Assembly: GCA_015501585.1 (NCBI GenBank)
Contig: JADNRY010000259.1
Location: forward strand, 1-64,000
Length of the DNA stretch: 64,000 nucleotides
Origin: Rhodocollybia butyracea
Lineage: Eukaryota > Basidiomycota > Agaricomycetes > Agaricales > Omphalotaceae
Direction: 5' to 3'
The position numbers were made by a program, and so were the translations under genes. Below the pieces are notes generated by a model that had not been told where the DNA came from, did not search any database, and saw only the letters and a program-made list of their open reading frames with translations. Positions 2,690-60,100 of the stretch are shown one piece after another. Each line of letters opens with the position of its first letter. The stretch's first letter is position 1.

Positions 2690-3965
2690 TTGATTCTTCA
2701 AAAACCGCCAGATCGGGTATCTCTTTCCCACCTGATGTTGAGCCGGCATGCCGGTTAGTCCATTTGGTATTGCCAGATTTCCCCATCCCGATTTGATACG
2801 GTCATTGGCTTGAGTTCCTGCCGTGCCTGTGCTGCCCCATGAGACGCCACAGCATGTGCTTTTGCGCCGTAGTATCTTATCTTATCTCAGTCTTATCCTA
2901 CTTATTACAGCGTTTTCGGAAAACCTTGTCCGAAGCGAAAAGTATGATGTAAAAAATAATTCCGAAAAGGGAAGCGCTCGGGCCAGTGCTGCGATTACTA
3001 CGTGCGCTCATGGTCTTCCACCAAATTAGCCAGGATCTCAAGGAGCCTGCACTTTTTCTACTTGAGAATGGACATCAGGCAGTAGCGGGAAGCTTATCAG
3101 CAAGCATATACAGCAGCACAAATCCTCTGGATTGACGAGATGAGCAAAGATGCATGAGTGGACAATATATTCAGCTGTGCTGTTCTAGGCAAACGCGCTG
3201 TTGTTTCAGCCAATTTTGTTCAAGGGGACTGGTATTCACTTATCACGGCTTTGGGAGTTGAAGGATATTCCATCACCGCGTTGTTCCCGGTTCTCTTAAT
3301 GGTGATGACTCGTTCTTTGATTTTATTATTTCCGATGTGGTATGTCTTTTGAGTCTAATTTACAGATGTACGCTAATGTCTAAGTAGATTCCAATGATGA
3401 ATCCATTTCCAGGTGACCAAAGTGTTATCATCACGGATAACTGTCAGATTCACAAGTGACAAGTCTATGGCTTTGAGTGAAGTTGTTGAGTCTTTGGTAT
3501 CATATTTCCTTTGAACTTTATAGACAGTTGCTGACCATTCATTCCCATTTCCTATGCTGTAAAACTGTATTCTTACCACCATACTTATTCTCCTTCAGTG
3601 CAGGTAATGCTCTTGTGTTATAGCTTGTAAGTACATATGAGTCTGATTTTTTTTAGTGAAAGGATATCTTACATCTGCAAAACCTGGGTTTTGATCAAAG
3701 CAATTCTATTCAGTTGCTATTCAGTCCAAAGCATCTCAGAGCAAGGGTACTCGCTGTAGAGCACTCTGAGCTGCTCTGGGTGGCAGCTTTGACAGCTTTG
3801 GAGCGCTCCAGAGTGCTCCAGAGCAGCCAAAGCTCATCCCAGGTTTTGCAGATGTAGAAGGCACTGGAAACAGGCACAGGACACTAATGACCCAGAGATC
3901 TTCCTTCTTGAAGCTATGTCAGCAGTTTCAGCTGAATCAGCCCAAGGATGGATTAGACACCCTAT
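2690..3965 (+). pseudogene. Tc1/mariner-like (IS630-type) transposase remnant
   Basis: A plus-strand DDE transposase relic. In order it shows WIDEMSKDA (first catalytic Asp block, near 3,130), then a frame carrying NFVQGDWYSLITALGVEGY (near 3,215), a frame-shifted block DDSFFDFIISDVV (near 3,310), then NPFPGDQSVIITDNCQIHK (second Asp block, near 3,400). A weak FLPPY-like block follows (near 3,570), and the C-terminal AMSAVSAESAQGWIRH lies near 3,915-3,950. It has stops and frame changes and no convincing third acidic residue, so it is inactive. It lies in the opposite orientation inside the Plavaka gene. The region before 3,100 is poorly conserved, so the left limit is approximate. Confidence 0.72.
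3672..3854. mobile_element. 183-bp MITE with TA target duplication
   Basis: The termini are perfect inverted repeats: CATCTGCAAAACCTGGG at 3,672-3,688 and its reverse complement at 3,838-3,854. Each is flanked by TA (3,670-3,671 and 3,855-3,856), the signature of Tc1/mariner-type transposition. The interior is rich in GAGC/GCTC palindromic words. It sits in the mariner transposase remnant. Deleting the element plus one TA joins the flanks into one open frame reading VKGYL then RRHWKQAQD, so the insertion point is exact. Confidence 0.88.
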
Positions 3966-5244: not shown

Positions 5245-6917
5245 CTGCACAGCAGCATTAAGGATTACCATACTGCGTCTCATACCAGCTTTGGAAGTCA
5301 TCAGGGAGCTAAGAAGGCACGTTAGATATTACCATATGTTACACTGGTAATGAAGAAAATTCACCTTTGGTATGTACGCTAGATGATGGGCAGCATATGC
5401 ACTAGGCTTTCCTCTATCATACTTGGACTGGTTACCCATGTACATATAGATTGGCCACATTGAAGCATTGCCCCAGGTTCCAACACGAGTGGAATCAGAC
5501 CAGAACATTACTCCAGCTACAGCGTTTGGAACCTTCAGTTCCTCATTGGTGGGCTCTTCTTGTTGCTTGGTCCACTGTTCAGCCTGGATACTGTTGTGTT
5601 CCTTGAGAAATGTGTTTGAGTTGTAAAGCTTGTGGTGAAGGTGGATAGAAACGGGGTCTTCATCTGGCTCTGTCAGCTGAAGGTGAAACAGCTTGAATGG
5701 GGAATAATGATATTTTTTGGAAGCAGGAGATTGGAAAGCGGCTTTGATAACCTCGAAAGGCTTCCTATAAAAGACACCCTTCACCTCATACACAGGTGCA
5801 TCTTCCTCATTCTGCTTCACCCCATGGCAGGGAACAGGAATACGAACAGAGCCCTTGATCCAGCCATCTTCTGCATAAAGAGGATCACTGTCATCCTCAT
5901 ATTCATCCATATCCTGCTCAACTGTACATGTGTTGAACCTGTTGAAGTGCTCCTTCTGGAAATTGTCAGGCTCAATGACCTCCTTCACCAGCTTTTTGAA
6001 CTCAGTGGGTGACTTTTCTTGATTTCCGTTATACTGCCAACCCATAAGGCGCATGACCAACACATTCAAAAATGGTGCAATAACTTGTTGGATCGGTGTA
6101 GTTATGCCGTTCATGACTTTCCGGACAGCCGTTCCAAAGACAGAGAGAGAGGAAGAAGGAGGAGAAACGGGAAAACCTGGGCCTTCACAGATATCCTCAA
6201 TGACAACTTCTTCATCAGGTATTGCGGCTGGAACTTCAGGATACGCTCTGAATATACCAAATGTGTCAGGTTCAGTGTAGAAATACTTCTGTAGAGGTAC
6301 GCATATAGACAGTTCGTTGTTGGGAGTAGGAGTAGGAGTGCGTTCCAGAGCAGGGGGAGTTGGAGCATGTGGGATTTCTTCAGCAGGTTCAAAGTTTTTT
6401 GGTAGCACACATGATAATGCTGGGAGATTATCATGCAGTTGCGCAGGAAGGAATCGTGTCCGGCCAGTTTGAGAGGGCTTCAGCACAACTAGCATCGGAG
6501 CTGGAGGCAGGAATGGGCTCTGGAGATGCGGTGGGCATATCTACATCGTTCAAGTTGGCGCGCTGTGAAACATTACCAAATGGCATTAAAACACAGGCTT
6601 AAACGTACCTCTACAATGAAATCTTCCCATACAGCCTTATCTTTTTCATCTGGGACTTCAGTAACATCCATACCACTGGTGCGCTGAACTTTGCCTTTGA
6701 GAACACAGCTAGGAACATCCAACTTTGGAAGAATCTTAAGTTTTGATGCTTTGCTACCCTTTGGCTTCAAGGTAAGAGTTGGCTTGCATCTGGTAGCTTT
6801 ACTGCGATGAGATGAGAGTTTGGAAGAGGTAGAGAACTCCTTCTTGCAGGTGGGACAGTAAAAGACAACCATCATGAGAGAATAAATCAAAAGGAGAGCA
6901 ACGGTGTAGCGCATCAA
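5245..6917 (-). pseudogene. Plavaka-type transposase, N-terminal half
   Basis: The minus-strand start at 6,917 encodes a leader and then a single C2H2-type finger (CPTCKKEF...H...C, residues about 21-43), followed by a basic linker. A splice donor GTACGT near 6,609 leads to a second exon. The main exon (6,495-5,330) carries TGRTRFLPAQLHDNLPA, then the Plavaka core: RKPFEVIKAAF, HYSPFKLFHLQL, AGVMFWSDSTRVGTWGNAS, WPIYMYMGNQSKYDRGKPSAYAAHHLAYIPK. After a short intron, LPDDFQSWYETQYG continues at about 5,311-5,268. The downstream part is found again at 2,674-225. The family normally has all these blocks in one gene, so about 2.5 kb of foreign DNA interrupts it near 5,245. Confidence 0.8.
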
Positions 6918-15848: not shown

Positions 15849-16531
15849 TAGGGTTTTAAAGTGCGGTGCACAAACCGTTGGATAACCGACAACCGCACTG
15901 CACTGAACTGCGGTGAGGGTAAATAAAGGTTGCACCGGTGCAGCGGTTTGCATCCGGTGCAGTTTGCGGTTCTTGGAAATTGAAGAATTTGCATAACTGA
16001 TCAAAACCGGTGGTAACCGGTGGTCAACCGGTGCAATTTACATAATGAAAATAATTGATTGACTGTGTTTTTCAAGCCTGACTTTATGTATTGTAAAGTA
16101 GATGTGATCTGGTAATCAAATTTTTAATTGTATACAGCTCACAGACGCCCATGTGCCACATTTGATTTGGGCGCCTGTGAGCTGTATACAATCAAAATCT
16201 TGATGACCGCATCAAATTTACTTTATACTAATGTAAGAATACCTTTATACACTGTTCATAAGTAGAGATTATTTTATTAGGCAACACTACAGGGTATATG
16301 ATGTTTTGAAACTGGTATAACCGCCGTTTTCACCGGTTCCGCACCAGTTTGCACCGGGTTATTGCCAAACCGGTTCAAAACCGCATAACTGCACTGAACC
16401 GGCACCGGTGAGGCGGTTCTTATCAGTTCAGTGCAAGGTTTGCTGAAATTTAAAAAATATACCACCGGTGCAGTTATCGGTTTGCCCAAAATGGCTGACA
16501 AAACCGAACCGCACCGCACTTTAAAACCCTA
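15849..16531. mobile_element. hAT-type MITE, family B (683 bp)
   Basis: The ends are TAGGGTTTTAAAGTGCGGTG and the matching inverted copy. A perfect 8-bp TSD ATGCTCTC lies at 15,841-15,848 and 16,532-16,539. Subterminal DNA is rich in ACCGGTGCA and AACCGCAC words. A central hairpin lies at 16,130-16,196. No coding region. Its ends nearly match those of the 9.4-kb hAT element at 26,094-35,492 (TAGGGTTTGAAAGTTCGGTG), which shares the ACCGGTGCA subterminal words. It is therefore a plausible non-autonomous client of that transposase. Confidence 0.93.
16130..16196. repeat. Central hairpin of family-B MITE
   Basis: TTGTATACAGCTCACAG and GGCGCCTGTGAGCTGTATACAA-type arms flank a short loop. The outer stem GTA(T/G)ACAGCTCAC is shared with the hairpins of family-A MITEs, although the surrounding elements have different ends. 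Confidence 0.8.
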
Positions 16532-20192: not shown

Positions 20193-21060
20193 TCAAAGAT
20201 TGCGGTAATCACGTAGTTCAGCCAATACACTTGGGATCACCTTTTCTGCCTTGTCCAGAACTTCCGTGACTGCTGCGAGATATTCATCTTCTGTCTGCTC
20301 AGCCTCCTGTGCCAAGGTAGTCAAGCTCAGTAAAATTCTTTCCATTGCAGTATCTCTACTGGCACCGTATGCCAGTAGGGCCGCAATGAACTTCTTGTTG
20401 AACTCAGAGAGAGGTATGTGAGGTTGAGTGGGAATGATATCACTGAGAAGGTTGCCATTGGGCGTAGGCGCTTCTGCATTGGTGCCCCTTTTGAGCAGAA
20501 AGAGCACCATGTCCAGTTTACATGGCGATGGTTTACCCCAAATCATTCCGGAATAGCCAAGTGCGGCCCATGTAAGTGGGATCCCATAGTGAGCCTGACG
20601 CTCGAGGTCTGCACCATAATCTAGAAGGAGACGCCCTATTTCCACTTTCCCATGTTTGCAAGTGTAATAGAGTGCAGTGATGCTGAGGTCATTGAGTGCA
20701 ATAAAAGGACTGTCAATGGGCGCGCCATGCTGCAACAGCAACTTCATCAGCTCCAGATTCCAAGAGAATTCTGCCAAATGAAGTGGCTGATAGTTGTATT
20801 TGCTGGATTGAGCTCCGATGTCTGCACCTGCTTCGAGAAGGAGAGCAGCAATGTCCCTGCACTGGTATTGTGCAGCAATGTGCAGGGGCATGTTGTAGCC
20901 ATGCCTCAAATCCAGGTTTATCAGGTGTGGAGGGGCAAGGAGTTTGGCCACTGTATGGAGCTTCCCTGCTTTCACTGCTTGAATGAAAACCACCTGCCCA
21001 AGCTTGGTGTCAGTGAGGGCTGCCTTATGCCCAGGTTGGAGGATCGCATGAAGCCAACTA
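20193..21060 (-). CDS. Ankyrin-repeat protein
   Basis: The minus-strand frame ends at 20,193 and is open back to about 21,090. Residues carry ankyrin repeats in series: VFIQAVKAGKLHTVAKLLA; PLHIAAQYQCRDIAALLLEAGADIG; QPLHLAEFSWNLELMKLLLQHGAPID; TALYYTCKHGKVEIGRLLLDYGADLE; PLTWAALGYSGMI; LDMVLFLLKRGTNAEAP; and a last degenerate unit FIAALLAYGASRDTA. A C-terminal helical tail rich in Glu/Ala follows. Ankyrin repeats mediate protein binding; no enzymatic domain is visible. An AG acceptor just before LHAILQPGHKAAL (near 21,060) suggests an upstream exon, perhaps in 21,185-21,387, whose own 5' end is cut by a hAT MITE. The gene may therefore lack its start. It lies between the two halves of the F-box-type gene, on the other strand. 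Confidence 0.75.
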
Positions 21061-21184
21061 CAAGTGAGGATAAGGGCGTGGAGAGATCCAGGAGATAGTA
21101 ACGGGGAAAGTCAAATTATAAGCTCTGGTGGAAAACCTTCAAAGTAATCTTTTGCCATGTCAAAGTGGCCAAGTTTGTCAAGCC

Positions 21185-25480: not shown

Positions 25481-26093
25481 TACATACTGAACAGTCCTGC
25501 TTGCTCCACTCTTGTTCTCATTCTCATGGATACATCTATGATATCCCATGATTGACTAGTGGACTTCCAGTGTAGCACAAAAGCTGGACTACTATTGCAA
25601 ACAAAGATAAGTAATATAAGTATGATAGAAAGGAGTGTATATTAGCAAGACCAAGGTAAGCGGACGCACGACAGAAAGGAGTATACATTAGTGTGATCAA
25701 GGTAAGCATAATGTGTAGATCAATATAACAGTGCAGATTAACAAGAGATTTGGCTTTCTTGCATCTTTATTAGGGCCAGCAACTGAGTTGTGTATGATCA
25801 TATCATAATCTGCTTGTGATAGGCAATAGAGATGACCTTCCAGGTCCCATGAGACAGTGACCACTTGCTGCAGGAGGTATCAGTATTAAATTACAATATG
25901 CATGGAAGCACACACACAACCGCCAGCTATACACAGATACTTTCCATGTGTACAAACATGAATGGGCCTTGGAGTTGTTGACCCAAGAGGGTAGTGTGCA
26001 GGTGCATAATCTTGTTCTTCATTCTGGTGTGTGAAGCCTTCTGGAATAGGCTCAAGTGCATCGAAATATTGGCTGGAGTCTATAGTAAGTGTT
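25481..26093. other. Noncoding part of the 12.5-kb element
   Basis: No open frame of note. From 25,486 to 25,660 the sequence matches the inverse of 37,440-37,610 (shared TTGACTAGTGGACTTCCAG and CAAAGATAAGTAATATAAGT). Confidence 0.5.
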
Positions 26094-26361
26094 TAGGGTT
26101 TGAAAGTTCGGTGCAGTTTGGTTTTTCCCCTGATTGTTAGACAACCGAGAACTGCACCGGTGCAAATTTTCATCATTTTCTTTGCACCGTGCACCGAACC
26201 ACGAGCAACTCCAGCACCGGTGCAGTGGGATAGAACTTACATGGTTTAAACCAGTTCGGTGCAACACCGGTGCAGCACCAGTGTAACCGGTTAGTGACAC
26301 ATGAATCCAACTAACGTACCAGGGGAACAACTACATAACAGGCATACAAAAAATAAATATA

Positions 26362-27949
26362 CTAACAAGTTACAGGAAAGAATTCAAGACCCCGTTTCCA
26401 GCGTGTACATCGATCCATCCACCATTTCTCTTGCTCCTCTTCAGTTGCCTGGGAGAGAAAAGTGTCCTGTGTTTGGAATCCATTCACCACCCAACAAAAG
26501 AGCCCACCAGCTGTGTATTGCGTGATGGAATACCGGCGCTCGTGTGCCTGAACAGGAGTGTTGTAGTGAACAAGCAATGCGGAGGGCAGGAAAATAACAC
26601 ATCCTGGGGGAAACTCAAGGACAAGCTTCAAGTCGGGTAGAACAAGATGACCGCCCGTGCAAGGATTGAAGTCCCCAAGCGAAAAAGCGGGGCACCATCC
26701 ATCGGGTCGGTTGGCACCATCAACGTGGGGGTCAGTCGTAGTTTGCGGGCCCATGTTGACGGTGATTGAGGACCATACTGAATTTGTGAAGTTGCGACGC
26801 AAATGCACTTCATGCGCATGGAGTAGACCTTGATGCTGGGCATAACTTTCGTACATTTTGGGGTTATATGTTCGAAATATTTCTACATGCAATGTATCGT
26901 AAGTATTTGCCGGGAACGAGCAGAGAGCTACAACTGACGATTCATGAAACCAGTTGCGCAGAGCATCGCAGGGTGCTGGAGCAGTCCATCCATGAAGTTA
27001 CATGCAGGTGGAGTGAGCACACGGTTTGCGGGATGCTGGGCCTCACAATCAGTAAGGGCCAGAAAATAGACGGAAGCACGTACCGTCTCACCACCGCCAT
27101 GCGATGGCCCAGAAGCAAGTGCCGCAAAACCATTCCCGCGGGTGTAGTGAAGTTGCTTCGGCGTAAACGAGAGGCTAGCCGCACCCGACGCAATCACGGC
27201 CTCTAGTGGCGCCACAACCTCTGCCTTCCAACGTGCAAGCTCTTGAGGAGATCCAGCAACCAGCACCATCATCCGTTGGTTGCGGTCAACGATGGGCACG
27301 GCACCACCTGCGGCTGGCAGTGCAACATAGCGCCAGCCAGGTTGGGCACAGAGGACCGTTGCATCCCGACCATCCGCCGCCAGCACCTGGCGTTGGCCTC
27401 CAAAGCCGGAAGAGTTAACGGGGAGGTCAGCAGCATCAAAATCAACTCGGATGGCATTTGCGGCGGCCCGTGTGCGATGAGCCGCATAGGGAGCTTTTGC
27501 AGGAATGTCCGAGGATGGGGCAGCCTTGCGTTTCTGTCGACGGCGTGGATGGGAGTTTTGTTGCTTGGCATTGCGGGTAGTACGCCCCGGCCTTGAGGCA
27601 GTGGCATCCAGGGTGGGAGAGGTCGCAGTGGGAGGTGGCATGGTAGGAGAGGAGGCAGATGGGGATGAGACGGCGGGCGGCGGGATTGCGGATGGAGTAA
27701 ACGGGCATGGGTGTACCTGCAGATCCTATGTCACAACATTCAAGATGCACGAGTTTGTGAGGCAACAGAACAACATACCTTATCGACCCTGGGCGTCTCC
27801 AACTCACAATCCGAGAGGTCAGTATCATTCTGGGCATCAAGCTCGGCAAAACGAAGTTGTAGGAGGTCCGACACATCGACGTCACATTGGACGGATTGTT
27901 GGAGGGTGAATGGCGAGAATTCTGCACCGGAACGTGTTTGGTGGGTCAT
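26362..27949 (-). CDS. TET/JBP-family 2-oxoglutarate/Fe(II) dioxygenase
   Basis: Three exons give an uninterrupted 492-aa protein: 27,949-27,779 (57 codons, MTHQTRSGAEF), 27,725-26,939, and 26,882-26,362. Introns are 53 bp (GTATGT...TAG) and 56 bp (GTCAGT...TAG), with phases that agree exactly. The N-terminus is acidic then Pro/Ser-rich and basic. The C-terminal catalytic domain shows VNMGPQTTTDPHVDGANRPD (iron-binding HxD), GWCPAFSLGDFNPCTGGHLV, LPDLKLVLEFPPGCVIFLPS, the distal His in ALLVHYNTPV and the 2-oxoglutarate-type Arg in ERRYSITQYTAGGLFCWV. This family oxidises 5-methylcytosine (TET) or thymine (JBP) in DNA; it is expanded in agaricomycetes and reported there mainly with KDZ transposons. 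Here it lies inside a hAT element, downstream of the hAT transposase. Oxidation of 5mC is inferred, not shown. Confidence 0.92.
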
Positions 27950-28433
27950 GGTCCTTCCAACCAAGATGTGCGGGTAAGGAAGAGGTAGAAAACAGAGGCC
28001 TGGTATCCGCAAAACGGGGTGCACACGGAAAAAGGCCCTCCCAAGGCCACAGGGTTAGGGATATGGTACGTTGTGGTGGATGCAGTGAGCGAAGTGGCTG
28101 TGGGAGTGTGGATCAGAACAGAAGCTGCAGAACTGGTAGAGACGGCAATAAACAATACATGGGTAAGGATATAAAGATATTATCCGGCGGATGGAAGAGG
28201 TGAGTATTTCTGACGCAAATCTTTACCTTTGTGGTTGAAGGTCAGTGAGAAGATTAAATTTTCATGAAGTGATGGTCAACTTCACACAGCTGAACTGAAG
28301 TGGGTTTAGACGCCTTAATTTCGAGTTCGTCATTCTGAACAACATATCGTATCTCAAGCAACCATTTGAATGTATGAGGCTTCAAGTTCATATATTTGTT
28401 GAAGCTACTAATTGTAATATACGGCAATACAAG
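27950..28433. promoter_or_regulatory. Spacer between hAT transposase stop and TET/JBP start
   Basis: 484 bp with no gene. It must hold the 3' end of the transposase transcript and the promoter of the dioxygenase, unless they are co-transcribed. No TATA box or terminator could be assigned with confidence. Confidence 0.35.
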
Positions 28434-29286
28434 CTACCCATAAATATCCGTTGGAAATGCTGCAGTATTAAGGCTACCGAGACCGCATAACTTGTCTAAC
28501 TCCACCTCCATCTCGTCACAGAGAAGGAATCCCTCAAACTCAGAGAGATCTATGTGCTCGACTGCCTGCTGGTTCGTCTTTGCAAAATCGGTAGCTTCCT
28601 GGCGCCAATGCCATTTCATTACCTGTGCCTCCTCAAACCGAATGGGTCCAAGACGTGAACATCGGTCATCGGCTGTCTCTCCGCTCGAGGAAAAGAGCCG
28701 CTCGGAGGGGACTGAGGAAGCCATGACGGGAAGGATGTCCAAAGCAATACGCGCAATGGTGGGATACCGATATGCATGTTCCTGTGGATGTTTCAACTCT
28801 TGTGTACAAATATACATATAACTTGAAAACTTGAACGAACCCCATAATATCGGCAAAGGTCCATGTCGGGGGTGTGCTTGGGTGAATAGCTCTTATTCCA
28901 TGCCCGGAGTTCTGCCTGCCATCCGGAAAAACTGGTCTTTTGTGAAGCTTTCTGTGCATGGACACGGGCGTATGCAATATCGGGTGTTTCACTATCACTG
29001 GCATTCGATGCAGCGGCCGGGCTGGACGGTGCAAACACAGAGGAGGCAATGTTGGGGTTGTCACTGTCTTCACCAATTTCGGAGTCTTCATCCGAGCTCG
29101 CAGCTACAGTAGCTGTAACTTCCGGCGGAAATTCATGGCGTTTGTGCCAGTATTGTGCCATCTAGAAGAGCAACAGTGAGAAAGAATGACATGAAAAGGC
29201 ACAAATGCGCGCACCGTAGCCTCGACCAACTTCTCTGCTTCGTCAATCCAATTTTTCGCATTTTTGTTGCCTGCAGCAATTTCAGC

Positions 29287-29470
29287 GGCTTGGGCCTCGG
29301 CACCCCCCCAATGAAGTTCAATCCAGTGAAGTTTATAATAGGGATGGATAACTGGGGACAATCAAAGATGAGAATGTAGGCTTGGGCCTCGGCACCCCCC
29401 AAATGAAGTTCAATCCAGTGAAGTTTATAATAGGGATGGATAACTGGGGACAATCGAAGATGAGAATGTA
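29287..29470. repeat. 92-bp tandem duplication in the hAT transposase
   Basis: Copies 29,287-29,378 and 29,379-29,470 differ at about two positions. Each contains an intron 3' end (polypyrimidine, TTGTCCCCAG) and the start of the exon encoding HPYYKLHWIELH. 92 is not a multiple of 3, so both copies cannot be read through in one frame, but splicing to the acceptor proximal to the exon body would restore it. Confidence 0.9.
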
Positions 29471-30386
29471 TAGATCGGAAACAAAATATACACACATAAC
29501 GATAGTACATATGCTGGTCTGGTGTCAAACTTTTTGTAGTATTTGCGGAACTTGGCAAGGCCAGCTTTGATGGCAGGATGATAGAGTTTGAATTTTTCAT
29601 CGGCGAGCTTGTTCTCCCATTGAGTGAGCAAGGTCTCAAGGGCGGGAATAGCTTTGTAAATGGAAATATTTTTGCTTGCCGAAAACACTTGTTGAATATG
29701 ATTGGCATCCTAACCAAGCATAAGGTTAATAGCAGATAGTAATAAAGGAGTGGGAAAAAAGTACCTCCAGGATGAGCTTACAGTCCTTCACCCGATCCCA
29801 GTCCTGGCTAGAAAACTTAAACGCGGCCCATGATATCTTCTTTACAATTTTTCCTTGGCTTCAAACAACAGTACATGACCCGAAGAGCTCATCGGCAACA
29901 AGTATAAAACAATTTATGGCCTGTAGCAATGTATTAAATATACCGGACAAAGTCAGAAATGAGTAGCAGTGCGTACCTTTGAAAGTTTTAACCCACGCTC
30001 AACCATCCCATATGCAGAGCCCCACCGAGTATTCCCATGAAGAATCAGTGAGAGGGGCGTATCAAATCCACATTCCCGCTGAATTTTCTGGAACTCCTGA
30101 ATTCTCTGTCCAGAGGCTTGAATTTTTGTTGCCAGAGTACGAAGAGCTGCAATCACATCAAGGGATCCACCCAGGACACGGTTATTGGTGTCCGCGGGAT
30201 CGTATTCCCAAATCGCTTGCGTAGTCTCGAGTGCTGCTTTCTTTGTAATAATCCCCATGGTGTCGCTAACTCCAAGATTCGAAACATGGCCCAAACACCT
30301 ACAGACTCTAAGTGATGGGCAGTGAGAAAGAGTATGCAGAGAACGTACATTAATTGGTTTTTTTTCGGCGTCCCAGAAACCGAGAT

Positions 30387-30639
30387 TATAACGCGCCCTA
30401 TGGGCAAAGTCCTTAGGAACACCGGTGAACACGACAAATAGGATACTATTGTGTGTACGACGGTGTAAAAGACTAACTAGACTCTTAAGTAATCATACGA
30501 TACTTATAGTAACGGATTTATTATATAATTAATAATAAATAGAATGATAAGATAGACCGTTTGGTCTATCGGCGGCGTCTAGGATGACCGTATCGCCAGA
30601 TACGGTCAGTGGTGATTATGGAGAGGCGGAGGCGTTACA
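30387..30639 (-). repeat. 3' LTR of the gag-only element
   Basis: 253 bp, nearly identical to the copy at 33,492-33,744; the differences are near 30,537, 30,554 and 30,598. It contains a small hairpin GATAGACCGTTTGGTCTATC. Confidence 0.93.
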
Positions 30640-30653
30640 CCCTCCCCCACCAG
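30640..30653 (-). promoter_or_regulatory. Polypurine tract
   Basis: On the minus strand GGTGGGGGAGGG directly precedes the 3' LTR (TGTAACGCC), the expected place for plus-strand priming. Confidence 0.75.
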
Positions 30654-30979
30654 ATTAACATCAGGGATGTGAATCGAAAATGGTAATGACATCATCACCA
30701 TCCGAACCATTTTTAATTTGGTTTAACATAGAATGATCCCGTATCAAGTACGGGATTAATTGATGCGGCGCATCAGATTTTCGGACTTGTCCAAATCAAA
30801 CAATAGTGGGGCGTACCACTAGAGCATGATTTGATTCGGAAATGTCCAAATGTTCAACGCGCAGACTCGGAAGTTTCCGAGTATTGCTTAATGAGGATTC
30901 TCAGTGAGAATCCGGGCTGAGGATAAGTAGTTATGCCCAGGTAAGGCATATTACCTGGGCGTCGGAATAAACCAATAAA

Positions 30980-33323
30980 TCATTCGGAAGGTTTATCCTT
31001 TCCGATACTTAAGGAGGTGTCCTCCTTGATTGGCTCAAGAACACTTTTAATGTTCTCGGTGTCCGACTCATCGGGGTGTTCTGATGATTCAAGTTCATTG
31101 TCTCTATTCCTAGAAGAGACATAATATTTAGTGAGGGCCATGTGGTCCTCAATGCGTGTGACGGCTCTGACCATCACTTCTAATTTGGCATACTCCGGAA
31201 CGATCCCCTTGTTCGTGAGTTGCCTGATAATATTGAAGGGTAATCCCTCAATGAACCGTTTCCGCATTGTTGCATCATCCGGTGTTTGGAGCATCCGTGA
31301 TGCCCATCGTGTAAGTGAGGAATAATAATCCCTCACACCCGTATCGGGTGAATACTCAATAAGGTCAAACTGCCGTGCAGCTTGATGAATGGTCGTTGCT
31401 TGGATGCAACGATCAAAGACACCAATGATGGCGCCTTCAAATGCCCACTTAAGGACAGTGCGGTGTATACCAGCGACTTCGTCGTTATACCAGTCAAGGG
31501 CTTTGCCCTGTAGAAACATGCCAAGCACGGCAGTCCGTGTAGCATCGTAATCATCACCGCACATGCGGTTGACTACCATCCATTGGAGAAGTGACATTAG
31601 CCACCGCTCGAAGACATCGACATCCGGAGATCCGTCATAGACCTCCGGAGATGGAACTTTAAGAGCTTTACGGCTCTCAATGGGAGGGATAGGATTCCCT
31701 ACCTTATCTCGAATTTGTTTACGGTACACTTTGTGTACCTTGTGTTTCCATCGGGAACGACGTTCATCGTCACCTGTTGTTTCTCGCATCTTAGATGCAA
31801 GTGAACGCAGTATTTTACGGCGCTCATTAGGAGTAATTTTACCCTTACGGGTAGCAAATTTGTCTAGCCAAGAGGCATCAGACGAAGAGTCAGTATTTGA
31901 CTCGGTATCACTAGAGTCAGATGATTCATCCGACCATGGCCTGCATTTGCGGCCTTTGGATTTAGCACTCTTGTGCTTCCTCCCCCCTTCACGGGATTTT
32001 TTGCTAGGCGCTTTCGCTCCGGCATTATTGCTTGGTCCTGGAAAGGACTCAGCGGGTGGAATGTAAAATTGATCCCAGATTTCTCTGGGAGTAGTCAATT
32101 TATCAACGGGTATTCCGTCGACATTATATCCCACCATTTGGTCGGGAATCCCAGATGGCGCGAATCCGAAATCTCGGAGACTGGTGTTATGTTGGCGTTG
32201 AATCGCTATGCGACTCATCCAATCTTTAGCTACTCCCAACGGAAGTGGCTGTGGTTGCAACTCGGCCAATACTGTTGGTACTGGCATTGAACTTGGCTCT
32301 GGCGCATTGCTGGGCGGCAATTTGGGCAGTCTTACGGTAGTGTGTACTACCGGAGGGGTAACACTTTGTGTCGCCGGGGCGATGGATATGGTAGTAGGAA
32401 CTACCGGAAGGGTACCGTGTTGCGGTCCCATACTGGAATGATTTCCAGTAGTGTTTGGTACAACTACTGGAGGTGTAATAATATTGGGTAACCATTGGCG
32501 CCCTTGCAGTAGGGAAGTACATTGTACTTTCCTGTGGTGGTATCGCTACTACCTGATTGAAGTTACGAGGTAACTTTGGTTCACTTTTGATGTTCACCGC
32601 GCTTTGTGGTGAGCAAGATTTGGTCACCGGTAATGGCCTGGGACCTCGCAGTGTCAGAGACGCTGCCTCCGCATTGGGACTCTGTCTCATGCAGGATGTG
32701 TAGATGGGTGTCGGTATAGTTACTGACACTGGTGCGTATTCCTGTCGGAATACAGGAACATGACGGGGTGACTTGGTCATCCCTTGTGAATACTGTTTGT
32801 CCAACAGTGATTGTTGGACTGACGGTGCCTTGGGCACAGTCTCATGCCATTGGCGTACCGAGTTGTTTGCCTCGGTAGGAACAGATGGTGCTGCATTGTG
32901 CAATACCGGCGGTGTGACGGCAGGCCGTCTCGGTGTGGGTGTAGCAATAGTGATTCTATTGCTGTTTCTTGATGAAGAAGATCTTTCTTCATCAGATCGG
33001 ATGCTAGATGCATCCCATTTCTCAGTTATATTGAGAATACGATTGAGTACTTGCGTACTCTTGTCGAGTGATGCCGCTACATCTTGTAGCGCAGAAGAAA
33101 TCTCACTTAAACCCTCTCGGGTTGGCCGTTTCTTACGAATAGTCATAGACTGTTCATTAGGTGGACTCTTGTCCTGCCTGTAGTGCTGTCTTTCAGATGC
33201 ACATACGGAATGAGTCGCTGATGCGACTGAATAGATTGATTGTGGTGACACGTCACCACGAATGGAAGGTGCGCGATCGTGCACGCTCCGATATGACTTC
33301 TCTGATTGATTTCGAGAGGTCAT
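30980..33323 (-). CDS. Gag of the LTR element, with one frameshift
   Basis: Two overlapping minus-strand frames. The first (33,323-32,226) starts MTSRNQSEKSYRSVHDRAPS and is Ser/Pro-rich. The second (open upstream of 32,431, to 30,980) is Pro-rich and then has a Ser/Asp cluster. It continues with a retrotrans_gag domain: VDVFERWLMSLLQWMVVNRM, GDDYDATRTAVLGMFLQGKA, DWYNDEVAGIHRTVLKWAFE, YYSSLTRWASRMLQTPDDAT and RFIEGLPFNIIRQL. No zinc knuckle is seen near the end. The frame changes between about 32,430 and 32,500, where the Pro-rich composition moves from one frame to the other. This is either a one-base indel or a programmed shift. Capsid formation is the presumed role. Confidence 0.85.
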
Positions 33324-33491
33324 TGAGACAGCAAATGATATAGCGGGACGGAAAAATGGAGCGGGTTTGTGTAGATTGTGTAGTGAGTTGGAATAATGGT
33401 TGTTATACTTGGTAGTATAACTGTTTTTAGCTTGTTAAACTAATAGCTTTGTGTTATTCACACAATAGTAATTTTTTGATGTTCAAAAAAG

Positions 33492-33744
33492 TATAACGCG
33501 CCCTATGGGCAAAGTCCTTAGGAACACCGGTGAACACGACAAATAGGATACTATTGTGTGTACGACGGTGTAAAAGACTAACTAGACTCTTAAGTAATCG
33601 TACGATACTTATAGTATCGGATTTATTATATAATTAATAATAAATAGAATGATAAGATAGACCGTTTGGTCTATCGGCGGCGTCTAGGATGACCGTATCG
33701 CCGGATACGGTCAGTGGTGATTATGGAGAGGCGGAGGCGTTACA
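33492..33744 (-). repeat. 5' LTR of the gag-only element
   Basis: Partner of the LTR at 30,387-30,639. It supplies the promoter in the minus direction. The bases immediately downstream on the minus strand (CTTTTTTGAACATC) do not resemble a usual tRNA primer-binding site. Confidence 0.93.
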
Positions 33745-35847
33745 GAGATCTAGGGCTAAGTGAAGCTCGTCCACCATCTGGCATAGTGTACCATTGCTTG
33801 TGGCATTATCAAAGGTAGAAGGACCGAGCTGATAATGAATTAACTTGGCAACATGTGACTGATAGACACGAAATTCCCCACCTTCGACACTTTCTTCTCA
33901 ACGTCAATAATTCCAACACGTCAACACATTCCAAGATAATAACGGCCGAGATTATCCCCATCATGTGCTCCTTCTACCGACCGAAAACCCAGGATTGTTG
34001 ACTTGAGCTTCCACAGGGGACGTTTCTTCTTGCGCGGGATAATCAAAATATAGGAAGACATGGCCCCAAAGAAAGGCATCTTGTTGCTCGGAGATGACCA
34101 CATATCACCACATGTAGCCACAAGCCCAATTACTGTCTGCATTTCCTTCACTTGATTTTCCAGTGTGCGTACATACTCATTGTGAAGATAAGTAGTGACC
34201 TGATATGCACTGGCTAGCTCACAACTTTTTGTTAATGGGCGCACCACGACAAGGGTATTCCGAAAGAAGGGACTGTCTGCAGTAGCAAAGGACTAGGTTA
34301 TGGAATGTGAGTGATTCTTCCACTTGTCAAAGACCGATACACTTACCTGGTCCGTGCAGATGATATACTTTGATGTGTGCTCCAAAATCTGAGCCTTCGA
34401 AACTCCTTGGGTCCTTGCGTTGCTGGCAGCGTATTAAACCCATGTTTTTGGAGGGATTGGGTCCCACTTTCCTTTTCGGCCTTCAATGCTTCAGCCTCTC
34501 GAGCTTTGGCAATTCTGGGCGGAACCGCGCGCGGGTGTTCTGCAATTCCTCTTTCCGCACATCGCTCCGCATACAGACTGTAGTGTTGGTGTGCATGCGT
34601 GCGGCAGGCGGAATTTCCTCCCGTAAAAAATGCATTTCGAAGGCCTCTTGCTATTACTTTCGGATCCTGCCTTTATCTTCCATTAGCTGGGAAATTATAT
34701 CATGGACTTACACACTCACTTGCATGTAAGACACCATCGTCCACGGGCTTTGGTAGTCTCCCCATTTTTATGGAAGTTCATGTCACAGAGATCCGAAAAC
34801 AGGAGGGGAATATCTTGTGCATTTGCTTTCACATTGATGCCATCAGGTATGTCGCTTTTGTGTTTTTTATGTAGACTGATTAGCTTGACCGGCAAGGTTA
34901 TTTGTGTAATATGCACATTGTTTGTTCCCTCTTCCATTTCTATCTCTTCCTCGCTTTCACTACTCACGGCGGCCTTCTTTTGTTTCTTGGACGGTGGTGG
35001 CGCCCGATCTTTGCTCTGGTCATTGTCACTGTCCCCCGAGTCACTGCTATTAGTACTGTTACTGTCCCTTTTTTCAACGTCATTGGCATGTTTGCGTTTG
35101 GTTAATGACTTGTTGGAAGATGTTTTTCCTTTTGAAGTAGTTTTTTGCGCTGTTTTTTTACCCGTGTGAGTTGGCATTGTGCTCGAACAGAGAAAAATTT
35201 GTTGCTGGGTTTCTATGCCCCATTTCGGTTCAACATAATATATTTAGTACTAGGCTACTTTAGGCTATAACTAGTAAGCCAATTTCGGCTGTGAACCGGT
35301 GCGAACCGGTGTACGGTTTCACCGGTTCACACCGGTTATGGTCGGTTTTGAGATTTCGGAAATATAAGAGAACCTTGAACCGCACCGGAACCAAACTGTG
35401 CACCGGTGTAATTTTTTTCGGTGCAATTTCCGGTGCAGTGCAGTGCAGTGCACAGTTTTGAACGGTTTGTTGCACTGCACTTTCAAACCCTATAAGTGTT
35501 TTATAGGAATTTTGGGCAGTCTCAAAATGCAAAAACTAGATGGATGAATAACTAGGCATCCTGTAACCACCCTTGAGCTCAATTGATTTAAAAATAATAC
35601 ACCTTCAACATGGAAGGACAGTATTATACCATGATATGGCAAACCAGCCACAGTCTGTGACCTTTCAGTGACCACTGACCCTTGCCGACTCCACTCTCTT
35701 TTGTTGTGCCTATGGTAATCCACTACAATGACACTCAACAACCCTCAATGACCATGAACCATTGCAGAAGATCTTCTGAGTGGCCTCTGATTCCAACCAC
35801 CAACCTTCACCAGCCCTGGTCCCTCACTGCCAAGCTCATAAGCTGTG

Positions 35848-51239: not shown

Positions 51240-51639
51240 GTTGTTAAATTACTCAATCCTCAAAAAATGATTGTCTTGGTAAACTACAACATTCCAAATG
51301 ATTGTCTTTGATAGTAGGTGCTCTGAATGATTGTCTTAATTCTTGGTACTCTAAATGACTGTTTGCTCAAGGCAATCAAAATGATTGTCCTCAATAGGAG
51401 GCAATCTCACTGATTGTCTTGGGTTGGGCACTTTAAATGATTGTTTGCTCAAGACAATCATTTTGATTGTCCTTGAGAGTTGGCAATCCAAATGATTGTC
51501 TTAAACTGTGGGCATTCAAAATGATTGTTTGCTCAAGACAATCAAAATGAGTGTTTGGCAAAAAACCACCTAAATGATTGTTTTTTCAAAAAATAATTGT
51601 CTCAGACAATCAAATTCATTGTTTTTCCTTCCTGTAGTG
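51240..51639. mobile_element. CACTA-type terminus with AATGATTGTC subterminal repeats
   Basis: Reading the minus strand from 51,639, the element starts CACTACAGGAAGGAAAAAC. It is followed inward by about twelve direct and inverted copies of AATGATTGTC(TT) within 380 bp. A CACTA end plus dense short subterminal repeats fits the CMC superfamily. It abuts the Copia pol frame, which is lost at this point. A matching left end was not found, so only one end of the element is supported. Confidence 0.65.
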
Positions 51640-54600
51640 CTTGAGAACATATTTGTTTCTGTCTGCAAGTTCAATGTCCGGAGGTTGTTCCATAAATATT
51701 TCTTCATTATCTTCGAAAGTGGCATTAAGAAATGCACCATGAAAATCAAAAACTTCTATGTCCCAATCATTCCTTGCTGCAATCGCAAGGATTGATCTCA
51801 ATGATGCCAACTTTGCAACTGGTGCAAAAGTCTCAAAGAAATCCACTCCTTCTACTTGTGTGAAGCCCTTGGCAACTAACCTAGCCTTATATTTATCAAC
51901 AAGACCATTCTTCATTTTGATCTTCAAAGCCCATTTACAGTCAACAACATTTTGATTGTCAGGTCTTGGTACAATTTCCCAAGTTCCTGCATCTAACAAT
52001 GTTTTTAATTCTGTATCTCTGGCTTCTTTCCATTTGGGCCAGTCAACTCTGGTCTTAGCCTCCTCATAGGAGGGCTCAAGACCTTTGGCTTCAATTGCTG
52101 CTGCTGCCAGCCCAAATTCAATTTGGATGTCTTGTGCCTGTTCACCAGGTTCATTCTCTGGAATTGTAGTTGGAAGTTGAATGCCTGGGGTTACAAGTGG
52201 TGCTGATGGTCGGCTATCTGTGTGTCCTTCTCCAGTAAGTAGATCCTGTACTTTCCTTGTTGTTGTCCTTCTGCGAGAACCTTCTATAATATTCTGGTGA
52301 CTGAGTTCTGAGTTTAATGTTCCAAGATGATTATTTCTTGGTAACACAGGTTTGGGGATAGTTGGTGTAATTGGACCTGTGGGTGCTACAGATGGCTTTG
52401 TTGGTGTAGATACTGGATTTGGAATCTGTAATGTTTCCAGTTCAATGGGATTTGGCATGAATCCTTCATCCTCCTCCTCATGCCTAATTCCACCTGGAAC
52501 AAATGTTGGTGCATCCTTGTCAAATTTTATACTCCTTTCTACTGATATTGTCTTGGTCTCAGGCCAATAAATTCTATGACCACTGGATACAAGATCAAAT
52601 CCAAGCCAATGTCCAATCTGTGCCCGCGCATCAAGTTTTGACTTGCTATCACGGTCATTATGGACCCAAACCTTTGCTCCCCACTCCCTAATGTTGGATA
52701 AATTTGGTTTCTCACCAAACATTACCTCATATGGAGTTGTATTTCCGAGTGCCTTTGTCCCACTCCTGTTCTTCAGCCAGATTGCATGCTTCAATGCCTC
52801 ACCCCATAAATTCTTGGGTAATCCACTGGCATATAGCATAGCCCTAATGCGTTCCAGTAGGGTCCTGTTCAATCTTTCAGACACTCCATTGTGCTCTGGT
52901 GTATCATGAACAGTGAGATTCCGTTGAATCCCTTCTTCAGCCAGATATTGGCTGAATAAATTGCTCAGGTATTCACCTCCTCTGTCTGAGCCTAACACCT
53001 TTATGCGTATCTCCTTCTGAGTCCAGAACCATGCACAAAATTGTTTGAAAGCATCATAAGTTTCATCCTTGGTTGCAAGAATATATGCTGTTGACCATCT
53101 TGAATGATCATCTGTAAAAGTGCAATAATACCTCTTGTGGCTTGGAGTTTGTACTGGGGCTGGTCCCCATACATCTGAGTGTACTAAATCTCCAATATTT
53201 GCTGCTCGGTCAAGCTCCCGCTCCTTGTTAATTGGTTTGCGTGTCTTCTTGGCATATTCACAGGTGTCACATGACTTGACTGGTTCTGATTCATCCAGTT
53301 CTATGCCCTCAATCAGGCCATCCTTTACCATTTTTCGGCAAGCTTCTGGTGCAATATGACCAAGTCGGCGGTGTAATTCATTCACAGTCACTTTTTCTGG
53401 TCTTGCAGCCATTCCATACACATTATCAGGTTTGTAGGTGACCTGATACAATCCATTTGTACTGTTGATTTGACCCAATACTTTGTCTCCTTTGCCATAT
53501 ATTCGGCAAAAATTGTCCCGAAACATTATGGAACATCCTGCTGCAGTAATCCGGCTTATTGAGATGAGTGTCACACTCAACTTTGGTGCATACAACACAT
53601 CCTTAATTAGGACTGTAGTTGTTTTCTTCTTTCTAGGTATGGTAACGTGCATATCACCTCTCCCAATTGCATCAAATGTTCCACTATCAGCAGATCTAAT
53701 ACTTTTTGGTGCAATAGAGGTGAAGTTGATAAATTTATCCCTATATGGGGACATGTGGCGTGATGCACCTGAGTCATAAAGCTCTGTGACACCATCCAGA
53801 ATCTTGTCAGCATTTGCAAGAAAAATACTGTTATACCTAGTGTATGCCTTTCCAAAATCATCCACATTGATTTCTTCATAATCAATGTCTTGTAATTGCT
53901 GTCCTTGTATAGCATCTGGGTCTGGAATACTGAGTTCCACTAAAATAGGTCCATTTGAGGAGGTTTCCAGGGGTCCTTCCTCATTATCCGAGTCTTCTAC
54001 CTCTTGTAGGTCCGGAACTTCGAGTTCATCAATATCGCTGAACCAGGCTTCATCATCCCAAATCTCTTCTGTTCTCCAGTTGTCTGGGGCATCCAATGAT
54101 GTAGACACACTCTGAAGGTCTGGCATTGAATTACCATCATCAGAGTCACTGTCATGGGGAAGTTCAAACTCTTTTATTGACTGAACACTGGATCTATTGG
54201 ACTCATTATTGGAGTCCCACAAGAACTCATCATTCACATAGATGGCTCCCAACCCTTCCAGTTGTTCATCAATCTCATTTTTAGGTTCTTGATAACCTGA
54301 TATATTCTCCTGAACTTTTAATTCCCATACATCATCTGAGAGTGCATGTGCATACCATGCAAAATCTTCATTGTTGGTGGTGGCTGTGTTTACTTGAGTT
54401 GATTTGCCTTTGCCTTTCCAGTGTTTAGGCCATTGACCAGCCTTTCCACCTCCCTCAGCAAAGCAATCCTTCTTCATATGCCCTGTCTTTCCACAGTTAT
54501 AGCATTTAACTGACTTCTTGTTTCCAAACTTCTTTGAAGGTCCAGCATTATATGCTGCTTCCTTTGCTCCACTTTTGGAGTTCCGGTTTCCAAGTTTCCG

Positions 54601-55266
54601 GCGGTCAGATTCATCCAAGATATCTCTAATATAGGTATCCACACTGAGTTGTTGGTTTACAAGTGTTGCAGTTGCAGTGAGTGCTGCCAGGTATGGATCA
54701 TATGATGGAGGAAGTGCAGACATAATAATTGCAACAAAGTTGTCATTACCAGGGTCTGCATTCATAGAGACTAGATCCTCCCTAATAGTAATTACACGGG
54801 TTATGTAATCCCGCACATCTTCATCGCTCTCACAGCGTTCATTCTGAAGCTTACGCCGTAAGTCCACTACCATCATTCTTGACTTTCCCTGATGTTCATC
54901 AACTAATTTCTTCCACATTGCTCCAACACTCTTCTCTCCTTTAACCTTCAAAAATAATGAATCAGGTATAGTGCTTGCTATACCCTGCTTCAGTATTGCT
55001 GACTCTGAATTCCATGTTTTCATCTGCTTCTCCCAAGCCTCAATGGCAGTTTTCTCAGATGAAGTTGGCCCAGCATTTGGATCAGCTACAGAAGGCTTAG
55101 TAGGTGGTTTGCTGGACTCAGGGATATAATCCTCAAGACCAGCAGCCTCTGCTGCAAATATGAATCAATCCTTATAAATGACCCAATTGGACCCATCGGC
55201 ATTAAGCTTGGGTAGCCGTAAAAAGTAATCACCGAGTTTGGAGTTACTGGAGTTTGCTGACGACAT
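51616..55266 (-). pseudogene. Copia-type gag-pol polyprotein, 3' truncated
   Basis: The minus-strand start at 55,266 (MSSANSSNSKLGDYFLRLP) runs in one frame to about 51,640, broken by one internal TGA at 55,165-55,167 (context YKD-stop-FIFAAEAAG). Domains in order: UBN2-type gag; CCHC knuckle CYNCGKTGHMKKDC; protease with LYDSGASRHM; pre-integrase HRRLGH and CDTCEYAKKTR. The integrase core has HSDVWGP, TDDHSRW and the DHE block GEYLSNLFSQYLAEEGIQRN with HNGVSERLNRTL. Reverse transcriptase starts with DWPKWKEARDTELKTLLDAG and runs to FETFAPVAKLASLRSILAIA and DFHGAFLNATF, then is cut before the YVDD block. RNase H is absent. The frame ends where the CACTA-type terminus begins. Typical for basidiomycete Ty1/Copia; inactive. 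Confidence 0.93.
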
Positions 55267-57176: not shown

Positions 57177-60100
57177 TTATCGTCTCACATTTACCTTTTT
57201 CCAGCAACCTTCCCAGTTTTTGCCATATGTGAAATTACTATAGTCAATGTGTAGTGCAGAGTTTGTGGCATCAGCTGGCATAGTGAAAAGCTGTTGGTGA
57301 TTAGTAGCTCCAAATCTGTACTGAGATGGGAGCCAAAACAAAAGATGGCCTTCAGGTGATACCACCCAACCTCGCATATCAAGATAGACACTGGAAGGCA
57401 AAATCAAGCATGAGTGGCCATATATAGGCTCTGCTACAGCTTTCCCTGCTACAGCTTTCCAGATTCTCACTGTATGATAGGAGCCAGAAACAATATGTTT
57501 TTCATCTGAAGGCAAAGGAGATGACAGAACTGAATGGGTTTGTCCCTTTAGTGAATCTCCTAGTGACTGTGCTATTGCTATTTCTGTGCTCCAGACTCTC
57601 ACTGTCTGATCCCCAGAACCAGACACAAAATGTGTTCCATCTGGAGAGCAGGAAACTGACTGAACCCAATCAGTATGGCCTTTCAATGGATTCCCTACTG
57701 GACACCCAGTTACTACATTCCAGATTCTCAATGTATGATCTCTGGAACTGGATACAATATGCACTCCATCTAGAAAACAGGCAACTGACTGGACACAATC
57801 AGTATGCCCTCTTAAAGGATGCCTTATAGGCCGCCCTGTTTTTGCATCCCATATTCTCACTGTCTTATCCCTGGAACCAGACACAATGTATTTTCCATCC
57901 GGGGAGCATGCAACTGACTGAATCCAATCAGTATGTCCCTTCAATGGGTCTCTCATTGGCTTCCCTGTTTCTGTGTTCCAGATTCTCAATGTCTGATCCC
58001 TAGAACCTGAAACAATGCATTTTCCATCGGCAAAGAAAGCAACTGACTCAACCCAGCCAGTGTGCCCCTTAAATGGCTCTTGCGTAAGCTGTCCTGTATC
58101 TGCGTTCCATATTCTGACTGTCCTATCACTTGAACCAGACACAATGTGCTTTCCATCTGGCGAATAAGCAACTGACTGAACCCAATCAGTATGTCCTATT
58201 AATGGCATTCCTACTGACTTTCCGGTGTGTGTATCCCATATCCTTACTGTTCGGTCCCTGGAGCCAGATGCAATATAGTTTTGATCTGGAGAGTAAGCAA
58301 CTGACTCAATCCAGTTGGTGTGCCCCATTAATGACTGACCTACTGGGTTCCCAGTCTCTCCATCCCAGAATCTTATACTAAAATCCAAGGAACCGGATAC
58401 AATGTGTCTCCCATCTGGAGCATATGCAACTGAGTGGATCCAATCAGTATGGCTGCTTAATGTATTTGATATAATTTGTGGCTGTACTGTCTCTGCATTC
58501 CAGATTCTCACTGTCCGATCCCTGGAGCCAGACATAATGTGTTTTCCATCGGGAGAGTATACAGCTGACCAAACTGACCGAGTATGTCCCTTTAATGGCT
58601 CTCCTGCTAGCAACCCAGTTTTTGCATCCCATGTTCTGACTGTTTGATCACCAGAACCAGACACAATATATTTTCCATTGGGGGAGTAAGCAAGGGACAG
58701 AACTGAATGTGTATGTCCATGCAATGGCTCTCCTACTGGCTGCCCAGTTACTGCATCCCATATTCTTATTTTCTGATCCCTGGAACCAGACACAATGTGT
58801 TGGCCATTTGGAGAGTATGCTACTGACTCAACTGAGTGAGTATGTCCTTTCAATGGTTTTCCAACTAGCTGTCCAGTTTTTGCATCCCAAATTCTCACTG
58901 TCTCATCCCTGGAACCAGACACTATGTGTTTTCCATCTGGAGAGTATGCAACTGATGTAACTGAATGAGCATGACCTTTCAATGGACCTCCTATAGGCTG
59001 CCCTGTTATTGCGCTCCATATTAGAACTGTTGAATCTCTAGAACCAGACACAATGTGTTTCCCATCTGGAGAGTAAACAGCTGCCTGAACCCAGTCAGTG
59101 TGCTTCTTTAATGGATTTCCAACAGGCTGCCCTGTCTCTGTGTCCCATATTCTCACTGTCTGATCCCTGGAACCAGATACAATCTGTTTACCGTCAGGAG
59201 AATAGGCAACTGACTGAACCCAATCAGTATGTCCCATCAGTGGCTCCCTTACTGGCTGTCCAGTTTCTGCATTCCAGATTCTCACTGTCTGGTCTCTGGA
59301 ACCTGTTACAATATGTTTTCCATCTGGAGAGTAACTGGCACTATCAACTGCACTATCAAGTGGGATTTGGTTAATTTCGGAAGCCCAATATCTATGCTTT
59401 CCTTCCTGTTTAATTCTAATCACGTTCTTCAGAAAGCCATGGAGATGGTGATATAATAAAGTGTTTTCTGGGATCATGGCCAGTGCACTTTGATATAAGT
59501 GTGGAGTGCTATAGGCAATTGGGAAATAAAATGTCCGGACAAATTTTGCAATATCAATGGCAGCTTCAGGTATTTTGAGGTCAGAATGCTGCAATGAATT
59601 GGTTAGATGCCACATATCAATACTTAACTGCGGAGTGTGCTCAATGCTCATACCTTCCACTTTGTCTGATCTGACAAGTTGTCCATGCTATCACGGATCT
59701 GAGATGTTCTTCCCATCAAGCTCAAGCATTCCATCCAGTACATAATCTTTTCACCAGTCATCAACTGTACTACTTGGTTCAGCACTGTGTGATCCACATT
59801 GTCTGTCATACAAAGATGGTGAATCCAGCTTTCACAAGAATACTGAAGCTCCTCCGAAATATACTTTTCCACTCGTTCTCCTAATCTAGGGTTCGATATG
59901 AATTCATTCGGAATACAAGAATCTTCCAGATAACAAATATTGAATCTCAACTGAGACATCAACACTTTCAAGCAAGCAGTTGTAAGAAACATGTGTTGTT
60001 CTTTTAGATTTATGTTAAACCCTCTTTTTACTCCTTCATCCTGAATGAATTCTTTGAATGATAAATGGTACTTGAGTTTTCCATCTCCACTCTTGTAAAT

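Follow-up and report, generated by a model that had tools for sequence, protein, structure and literature searches.

A hAT transposon of the mushroom Rhodocollybia butyracea carries a gene for a predicted TET/JBP-like dioxygenase beside its transposase. The element lies on contig JADNRY010000259.1 (assembly GCA_015501585.1), of which positions 1 to 64,000 form the stretch of DNA studied here, called the window (contig C560 in the analysed genome of 1,381 contigs and 95.6 Mb). It occupies window positions 26094-35492, is 9,399 bp long and is closed at both ends. On the sequences at hand we lean, without great firmness, towards the reading that the gene is a long-standing cargo whose product would oxidise methylated cytosines at the ends of the element, to the element's benefit.

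Structure of the element and of its two genes

The element starts with a 14-bp terminal inverted repeat (TIR), TAGGGTTTGAAAGT, whose reverse complement stands at the other end without mismatch (14/14 bp), and the target-site duplication (TSD) TAAGTGTT, with the 8 bp of hAT elements, flanks both ends, again without mismatch (Table 1). The TIRs of hAT elements start with a YARNG-like consensus, and the TAGGG at the start of this one fits it. When positions 25901-35700 were scanned for TIR and TSD together, one pair within the thresholds was returned, the element's own ends. A count of the TIR allowing up to 2 mismatches gave 1,102 places against 1,250 for a reversed-pattern control and was dropped as evidence. 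Of 18 places with similarity to the 268-bp end beside the TET-like gene, the window alone covers this end in full; the others have the look of fragments or of short non-autonomous relatives. One non-autonomous relative stands in the window itself (15849-16531, 683 bp). Its 14-bp inverted ends, TAGGGTTTTAAAGT, and its 8-bp duplication, ATGCTCTC, are both perfect, and it has 8 ACCGGT sites. Another short relative of the family was seen in L007 (C736) at 967-1514 (548 bp), with ends TAGGGTTTTAAAGT and TAGGGTTTGAAAGT and the duplication CTCTTAAA.

Both genes of the element are on the minus strand, the TET-like gene 484 bp downstream of the transposase. The transposase has its start codon at 35177, extends to 28434 and contains the hAT dimerisation domain PF05699 (E 8.3e-8, 32.4 bits against a cut-off of 21.4). 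It is split by a nested long terminal repeat (LTR) element, on both sides of which it is matched by Tricholomella and Hypsizygus hAT proteins, the best of them 48% identical over 89% of the query. A putative in-frame stop, judged by eye, lies between conserved transposase blocks. The LTR element is young; its LTRs show 3 differences over 253 aligned bases, and it holds a weak gag-like open reading frame (ORF) that remains under the Pfam cut-off (E 0.096).

The gene model of the dioxygenase was obtained by comparison with a homolog from Lentinula lateritia (P0001), which is 51% identical over the full length and 72% identical in the catalytic part. It has four predicted exons with GT-AG introns, encodes 476 aa and has an open frame under the predicted splicing. 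The same comparison ruled out a three-exon model of 472 aa. The HVD motif, the downstream H and the R of the predicted dioxygenase are conserved in the relatives, and an HxD motif is present in 41 of 44 aligned sequences, the motif being unmatched in the other 3. We call the gene TET/JBP-like because its score against the Pfam Tet_JBP family falls under the cut-off. The structure predicted for the Lentinula homolog (mean predicted local distance difference test score, pLDDT, 67.7) matched the fold of CcTET best (E 5.4e-13), followed by NgTET, CMD1 and TET2, so that this predicted model has a TET fold.

The first-pass annotation of the window had described hAT-type ends with a perfect 8-bp TSD, a hAT transposase and, downstream on the same strand, an intact TET/JBP gene that stays open although the neighbouring transposase is broken. 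All of this agrees with the present results except for the structure of the gene: the open frame and the HVD...H...R residues stood, and the three exons and 492 aa gave way to four exons and 476 aa.

Table 1. Positions in the window of the hAT element, its parts and the insertion that it carries.
Feature	Position	Strand	Basis or remark
TSD TAAGTGTT, left copy	26086..26093	.	8 bp
Whole hAT element, 9,399 bp	26094..35492	- (strand of its genes)	TIR and TSD
TIR TAGGGTTTGAAAGT	26094..26107	+	
Subterminal region, TET-like gene side	26094..26361	.	4 ACCGGT; first 200 bp align with the C875 end
TET/JBP-like predicted exon 4	26362..26882	-	HVD, distal H, R; stop codon 26362-26364
TET/JBP-like predicted exon 3	26939..27035	-	Lentinula homolog comparison
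TET/JBP-like predicted exon 2	27084..27725	-	
TET/JBP-like predicted exon 1	27779..27949	-	start codon at 27949
hAT transposase, C-terminal part with dimerisation domain	28434..30386	-	exact exons provisional
Nested LTR element splitting the transposase	30387..33744	-	TSD GAGAT; LTRs 253 bp
hAT transposase, N-terminal part	33745..35177	-	start codon 35177; exact exons provisional
Subterminal region, transposase side	35245..35492	.	5 ACCGGT
TIR, other end, perfect reverse complement	35479..35492	-	
TSD TAAGTGTT, right copy	35493..35500	.	8 bp

Relatives of the element and of the TET-like gene

Two further copies were compared with the window element. On contig C875 a hAT end is located 244 bp past the matched part of a TET-like exon that is 73% identical to that of the window, where the distance is 257 bp, and the orientation is the same. 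At that place stands TAGAGTTTTAAAGT, with which a 200-bp alignment to the end of the window element begins; its score is 107, and the highest score among 300 shuffles was 33. A homologous end with a related gene at a near-equal distance argues for an old cargo, and judging from these sequences the pairing of hAT and TET-like gene is likely to be old. As a separate observation, a palindromic stretch with ends CATCAGGAAAAGC..GCTTTTCCTGATG cuts the TET-like gene of C875 (L062, around 3250-3700); judged by eye, it resembles a non-autonomous insertion of Plavaka type.

The third copy, C637, is 95-97% identical to the element across the transposase half. Its similarity ends inside the transposase, beyond which the sequence reads by eye as another insertion, and positions 45001-52000 of C637 gave a single 33-bp match, to the LTR insert only. 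Because the similarity stops within the transposase, C637 is no test of a transposase without a TET-like gene. The stretch 27950-28557 of the window was not found a second time in the genome.

The proposal of the first-pass annotation that a hAT lineage captured the dioxygenase gains support from the closed element and from the homologous C875 end with its related gene. The pattern that it had set against this proposal, full-length copies lacking the gene and separate insertion signatures around it, was not seen: no full-length copy of the family without the TET-like gene turned up in the genome (C637 being uninformative), and among TIRs with a TSD of more than 2 bp none was found to bracket the gene, the candidate pairs numbering 43 where shuffled flanks gave 56 on average.

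The closest TET-like gene in the genome is on contig C983 (78% identity over 170 aligned residues). It sits downstream of a Plavaka transposase on the same strand (PF18759, E 4.8e-84), and the DNA similarity between C560 and C983 is confined to the coding region. TET-carrying PlavakaB elements have ends of the form 5'-CATCA..TGATG-3' and a 2- or 3-bp duplication (Kojima 2025, PMC12730594; here and below, as given in the parts of its text used). The C983 stretch is bounded by CATCA..TGATG-type inverted ends, CATCAGGAAA, that pair at 14/15 bp (L061, positions 87 and 9851), and other end pairs, which lack CATCA, came close to this one in score (23 as compared with 24 of 40). It shows no 2- or 3-bp PlavakaB duplication, its flanks being GCGGC and CTAAT. 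Between C560 and C983 the ratio of nonsynonymous to synonymous change (dN/dS) of exon 4 is 0.11 with synonymous change near saturation, and on this comparison purifying selection acts on exon 4 within the gene clade.

A tree was made from 44 sequences: 30 of the 149 own-genome hits, namely those that came with a locus, and 14 of the 18 homologs, P0004-P0006 and P0018 being left out. The genes of C560, C983 and C875 group with Lentinula and Collybiopsis genes with a support of 100. Placing the C983 gene in one clade with the other Plavaka-associated genes was rejected (p 6.6e-49, or 6.5e-45 when neighbouring unlabelled genes were allowed). Because its closest gene sits downstream of a Plavaka transposase, the gene clade, as read from these sequences, has probably changed transposon superfamily, between hAT and Plavaka.

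TET-like genes are numerous in this genome. Of 167 first-look candidates 150 were scored, with 149 matches, and the hits merge to at least 136 loci. Within 10 kb, the nearest transposase is of KDZ type at 28 loci, Plavaka at 16 and hAT at 4, and there is none at 88; uniform placement would give about 2.5, 2.5 and 1.4 neighbours for KDZ, Plavaka and hAT, an expectation that is too low because transposons cluster. For Plavaka 123 of 237 candidates were scored, and manual merging reduced the match rows (138, 144 and 22 + 46) to 88, 88 and 49 loci before neighbours were counted. The KDZ neighbours are on the opposite strand in 27 of 28 cases, and the Plavaka neighbours upstream on the same strand in 14 of 16. 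We dropped genome-wide proximity of hAT and TET-like genes as evidence of linkage; the other three hAT neighbours look coincidental. At C312 and C1316 the sequence common to the adjoining hAT family (four copies compared, at least 99.2% identity) ends about 3.2 and 2.2 kb, respectively, before the matched TET part. At C520, 875 bp common with C551 end about 1 kb before the TET-like gene, which as one pair makes a weaker exclusion.

Possible function of the dioxygenase and the alternatives

The hexamer ACCGGT, which contains a CpG, occurs 9 times in the 516 bp of both ends; elsewhere in the element it is present only in the LTR insert, 3 times. The transposase may bind these arrays, since the sites cluster at the ends, which is our one reason for suggesting it. 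Comparison of the C560 and C637 copies gave 58 transitions, of which 30 are changes of CpG to TpG or CpA, with 17.6% of the C/G positions lying in CpG (p 3.7e-9). Such an excess is the trace expected if the element family is methylated in its host. Beside this, the ratio of observed to expected CpG is 0.75-1.09 across the parts of the element and 0.45 over the remainder of the window, as would be expected of a younger element within a methylated, CpG-decayed neighbourhood.

From the methylation trace and the clustering of ACCGGT we judged oxidation of 5-methylcytosine on the ends and the promoter to be the most likely function. The transposase and the TET-like gene would move together as one element. 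The encoded protein would oxidise 5-methylcytosine and the enzyme would in this way counter host methylation on the promoter and on the CpG-containing ACCGGT sites at the ends, and the gene clade would have passed between hAT and Plavaka elements. A bolder version sees here a self-unlocking mushroom hAT lineage with 8-bp duplications, separate from the hAT7 elements discussed below, whose enzyme would erase CpG methylation at transposase-bound ACCGGT arrays and whose gene would be a mobile anti-silencing module of hAT and Plavaka elements, outside the three TET types so far described from transposons. We put this version forward tentatively and think it rather unlikely in its entirety.

Several observations weigh against the reading of the gene as a helpful old cargo. 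The Pfam Tet_JBP score is 23.9 bits, below the curated cut-off of 34.9, which is a detection threshold and not a biological criterion (none of the 4 own-genome hits tested exceeds it). The fold matches of the Lentinula model have modest TM-scores, 0.33-0.36 by query for CcTET. Only a single copy unites the ends, the transposase and the TET-like gene. The TET-like gene of C875 is interrupted by an insertion and truncated on its upstream side, and the 13.2 kb between the hAT end and the end of that contig gave no sign of a hAT transposase. A grouping of the C560 and C875 genes that excludes the C983 gene is allowed by the approximately unbiased (AU) test, with p 0.18, and not favoured. The motifs of PlavakaB ends are present around the gene, one CATCA and one TGATG (26171 and 28270), and TET-like genes hardly enrich for hAT neighbours (4 of 136 loci against 1.4 expected). 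Finally, the TET-carrying copy and C637 have lost CpG to an equal extent (16 against 14 changes), so that no protection in cis is visible.

This last result bears on two of the three alternatives. The enzyme could act on numerous transposons in trans, or serve to set a repressive mark, rather than freeing its own carrier. That is possible, though we would not call it probable. Equal decay in two comparable copies speaks for it, as does the enrichment of oxidised 5-methylcytosine in the retrotransposons and DNA transposons of Laccaria and Coprinopsis, for which suppression by means of oxidised marks has been proposed (PMC8889193, in the part used). Kojima likewise speculates that enzymes of the AG type act without target specificity (PMC12730594). 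Against it stands an argument of the same author, who takes the repeated capture of such genes by unrelated transposons as a sign that the carrier benefits (PMC12730594).

The gene could also be a passenger, picked up by chance and of no use to the element, which we find less likely still. With at least 136 merged TET-like loci in the genome and a single complete copy of the element, chance capture is conceivable, and CpG decay that is the same with and without evidence of the gene points the same way. The homologous C875 end with a 73%-identical gene at near-equal distance counts against a passenger; so does the purifying selection that exon 4 shows across the clade, which may, however, stem from time spent in other elements.

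A nested insertion, in which the gene of a Plavaka or other non-autonomous element landed in a hAT copy, would agree with the position of the closest gene downstream of the C983 Plavaka transposase and with the CATCA and TGATG around the gene, yet it is very unlikely, because these two motifs do not extend into an inverted repeat (7 mismatches in 15 bp) and lack a flanking duplication, no other signature brackets the gene, the similarity to C983 is limited to coding DNA, and C875 has the same arrangement of end and gene.

A transposon that carries its own enzyme for DNA demethylation would directly counter silencing by methylation. If the helpful-cargo reading is right, the element is a second, structurally distinct type of TET-carrying hAT, outside the rusts, and one gene clade is common to hAT and Plavaka elements within one genome. 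The case makes two ideas testable, the enzyme as a transferable anti-silencing module and CpG-containing end motifs as its targets.

Other features of the window and comparison with known systems

Four further features of the window were noted. An 836-aa ORF of WD40 repeats (57180-59687) has WD40 matched in 14 stretches, which are probably near-identical repeats. An ORF with a partial Plavaka transposase (5332-6540, E 6.3e-13), an ankyrin-repeat ORF of 305 aa (20196-21110) and a Copia-type retroelement with an open frame of 1,182 aa from gag to reverse transcriptase (51619-55164) were also seen.

TET/JBP genes have been described in 11 transposon lineages (Kojima 2025, PMC12730594). The statement of the earlier annotation that they were reported mainly with KDZ transposons is thereby outdated, as hAT, Plavaka and others were reported in that year. 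The TET-carrying hAT elements of that work are the hAT7 of Puccinia rusts, which have 7-bp duplications, and the carriers that it names in mushrooms are Kyakuja, Zisupton, EnSpm, Plavaka and Helitron2; its main text, in the parts considered, contains no TET-carrying hAT from a mushroom. Among the literature matches listed, no other publication dealt with TET genes in hAT elements, and in the portion used of a 2026 review that cites Kojima (PMC13297926) the word hAT is absent.

By sequence the transposase resembles the hAT proteins of Tricholomella and Hypsizygus (P0019-P0022 and P0026; 37-48% identity over 89-94% of the query), compared here as proteins. The predicted fold of the Lentinula homolog is closest to CcTET of Coprinopsis cinerea (8jkk, 7vpn, 7w5p), whose close relatives make up Kojima's AG type, but searches of the PDB with the single protein, with two family profiles (E up to 10) or with one Mycena homolog gave no sequence match to CcTET. 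On C983, compared here with the TET-carrying PlavakaB elements, the TET-like gene lies downstream of the transposase on the same strand, as it does in the window. It is C983 that has the Plavaka transposase and CATCA-type ends, whereas the window holds a hAT element. The enzymes of mushroom Plavaka elements are of the PE type with the hallmark HxE (PMC12730594), unlike the HxD of the genes compared here.

As in the TET-carrying hAT7, a hAT transposase and a TET/JBP gene are joined on the same strand of a single element. Since similar passengers were reported from rust hAT elements in 2025, this kind of system has already been described. The present element differs from hAT7 in having an 8-bp instead of a 7-bp duplication, in the position of the gene, which is downstream of the transposase here and upstream in the three hAT7 families for which an order is given, and in its HxD enzyme and agaric host, the rust hAT7 having an enzyme of the PU type (PMC12730594). 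What is new here is a mushroom hAT with 8-bp duplications, a TET/JBP-like gene downstream of the transposase and an HxD enzyme outside the PE type.

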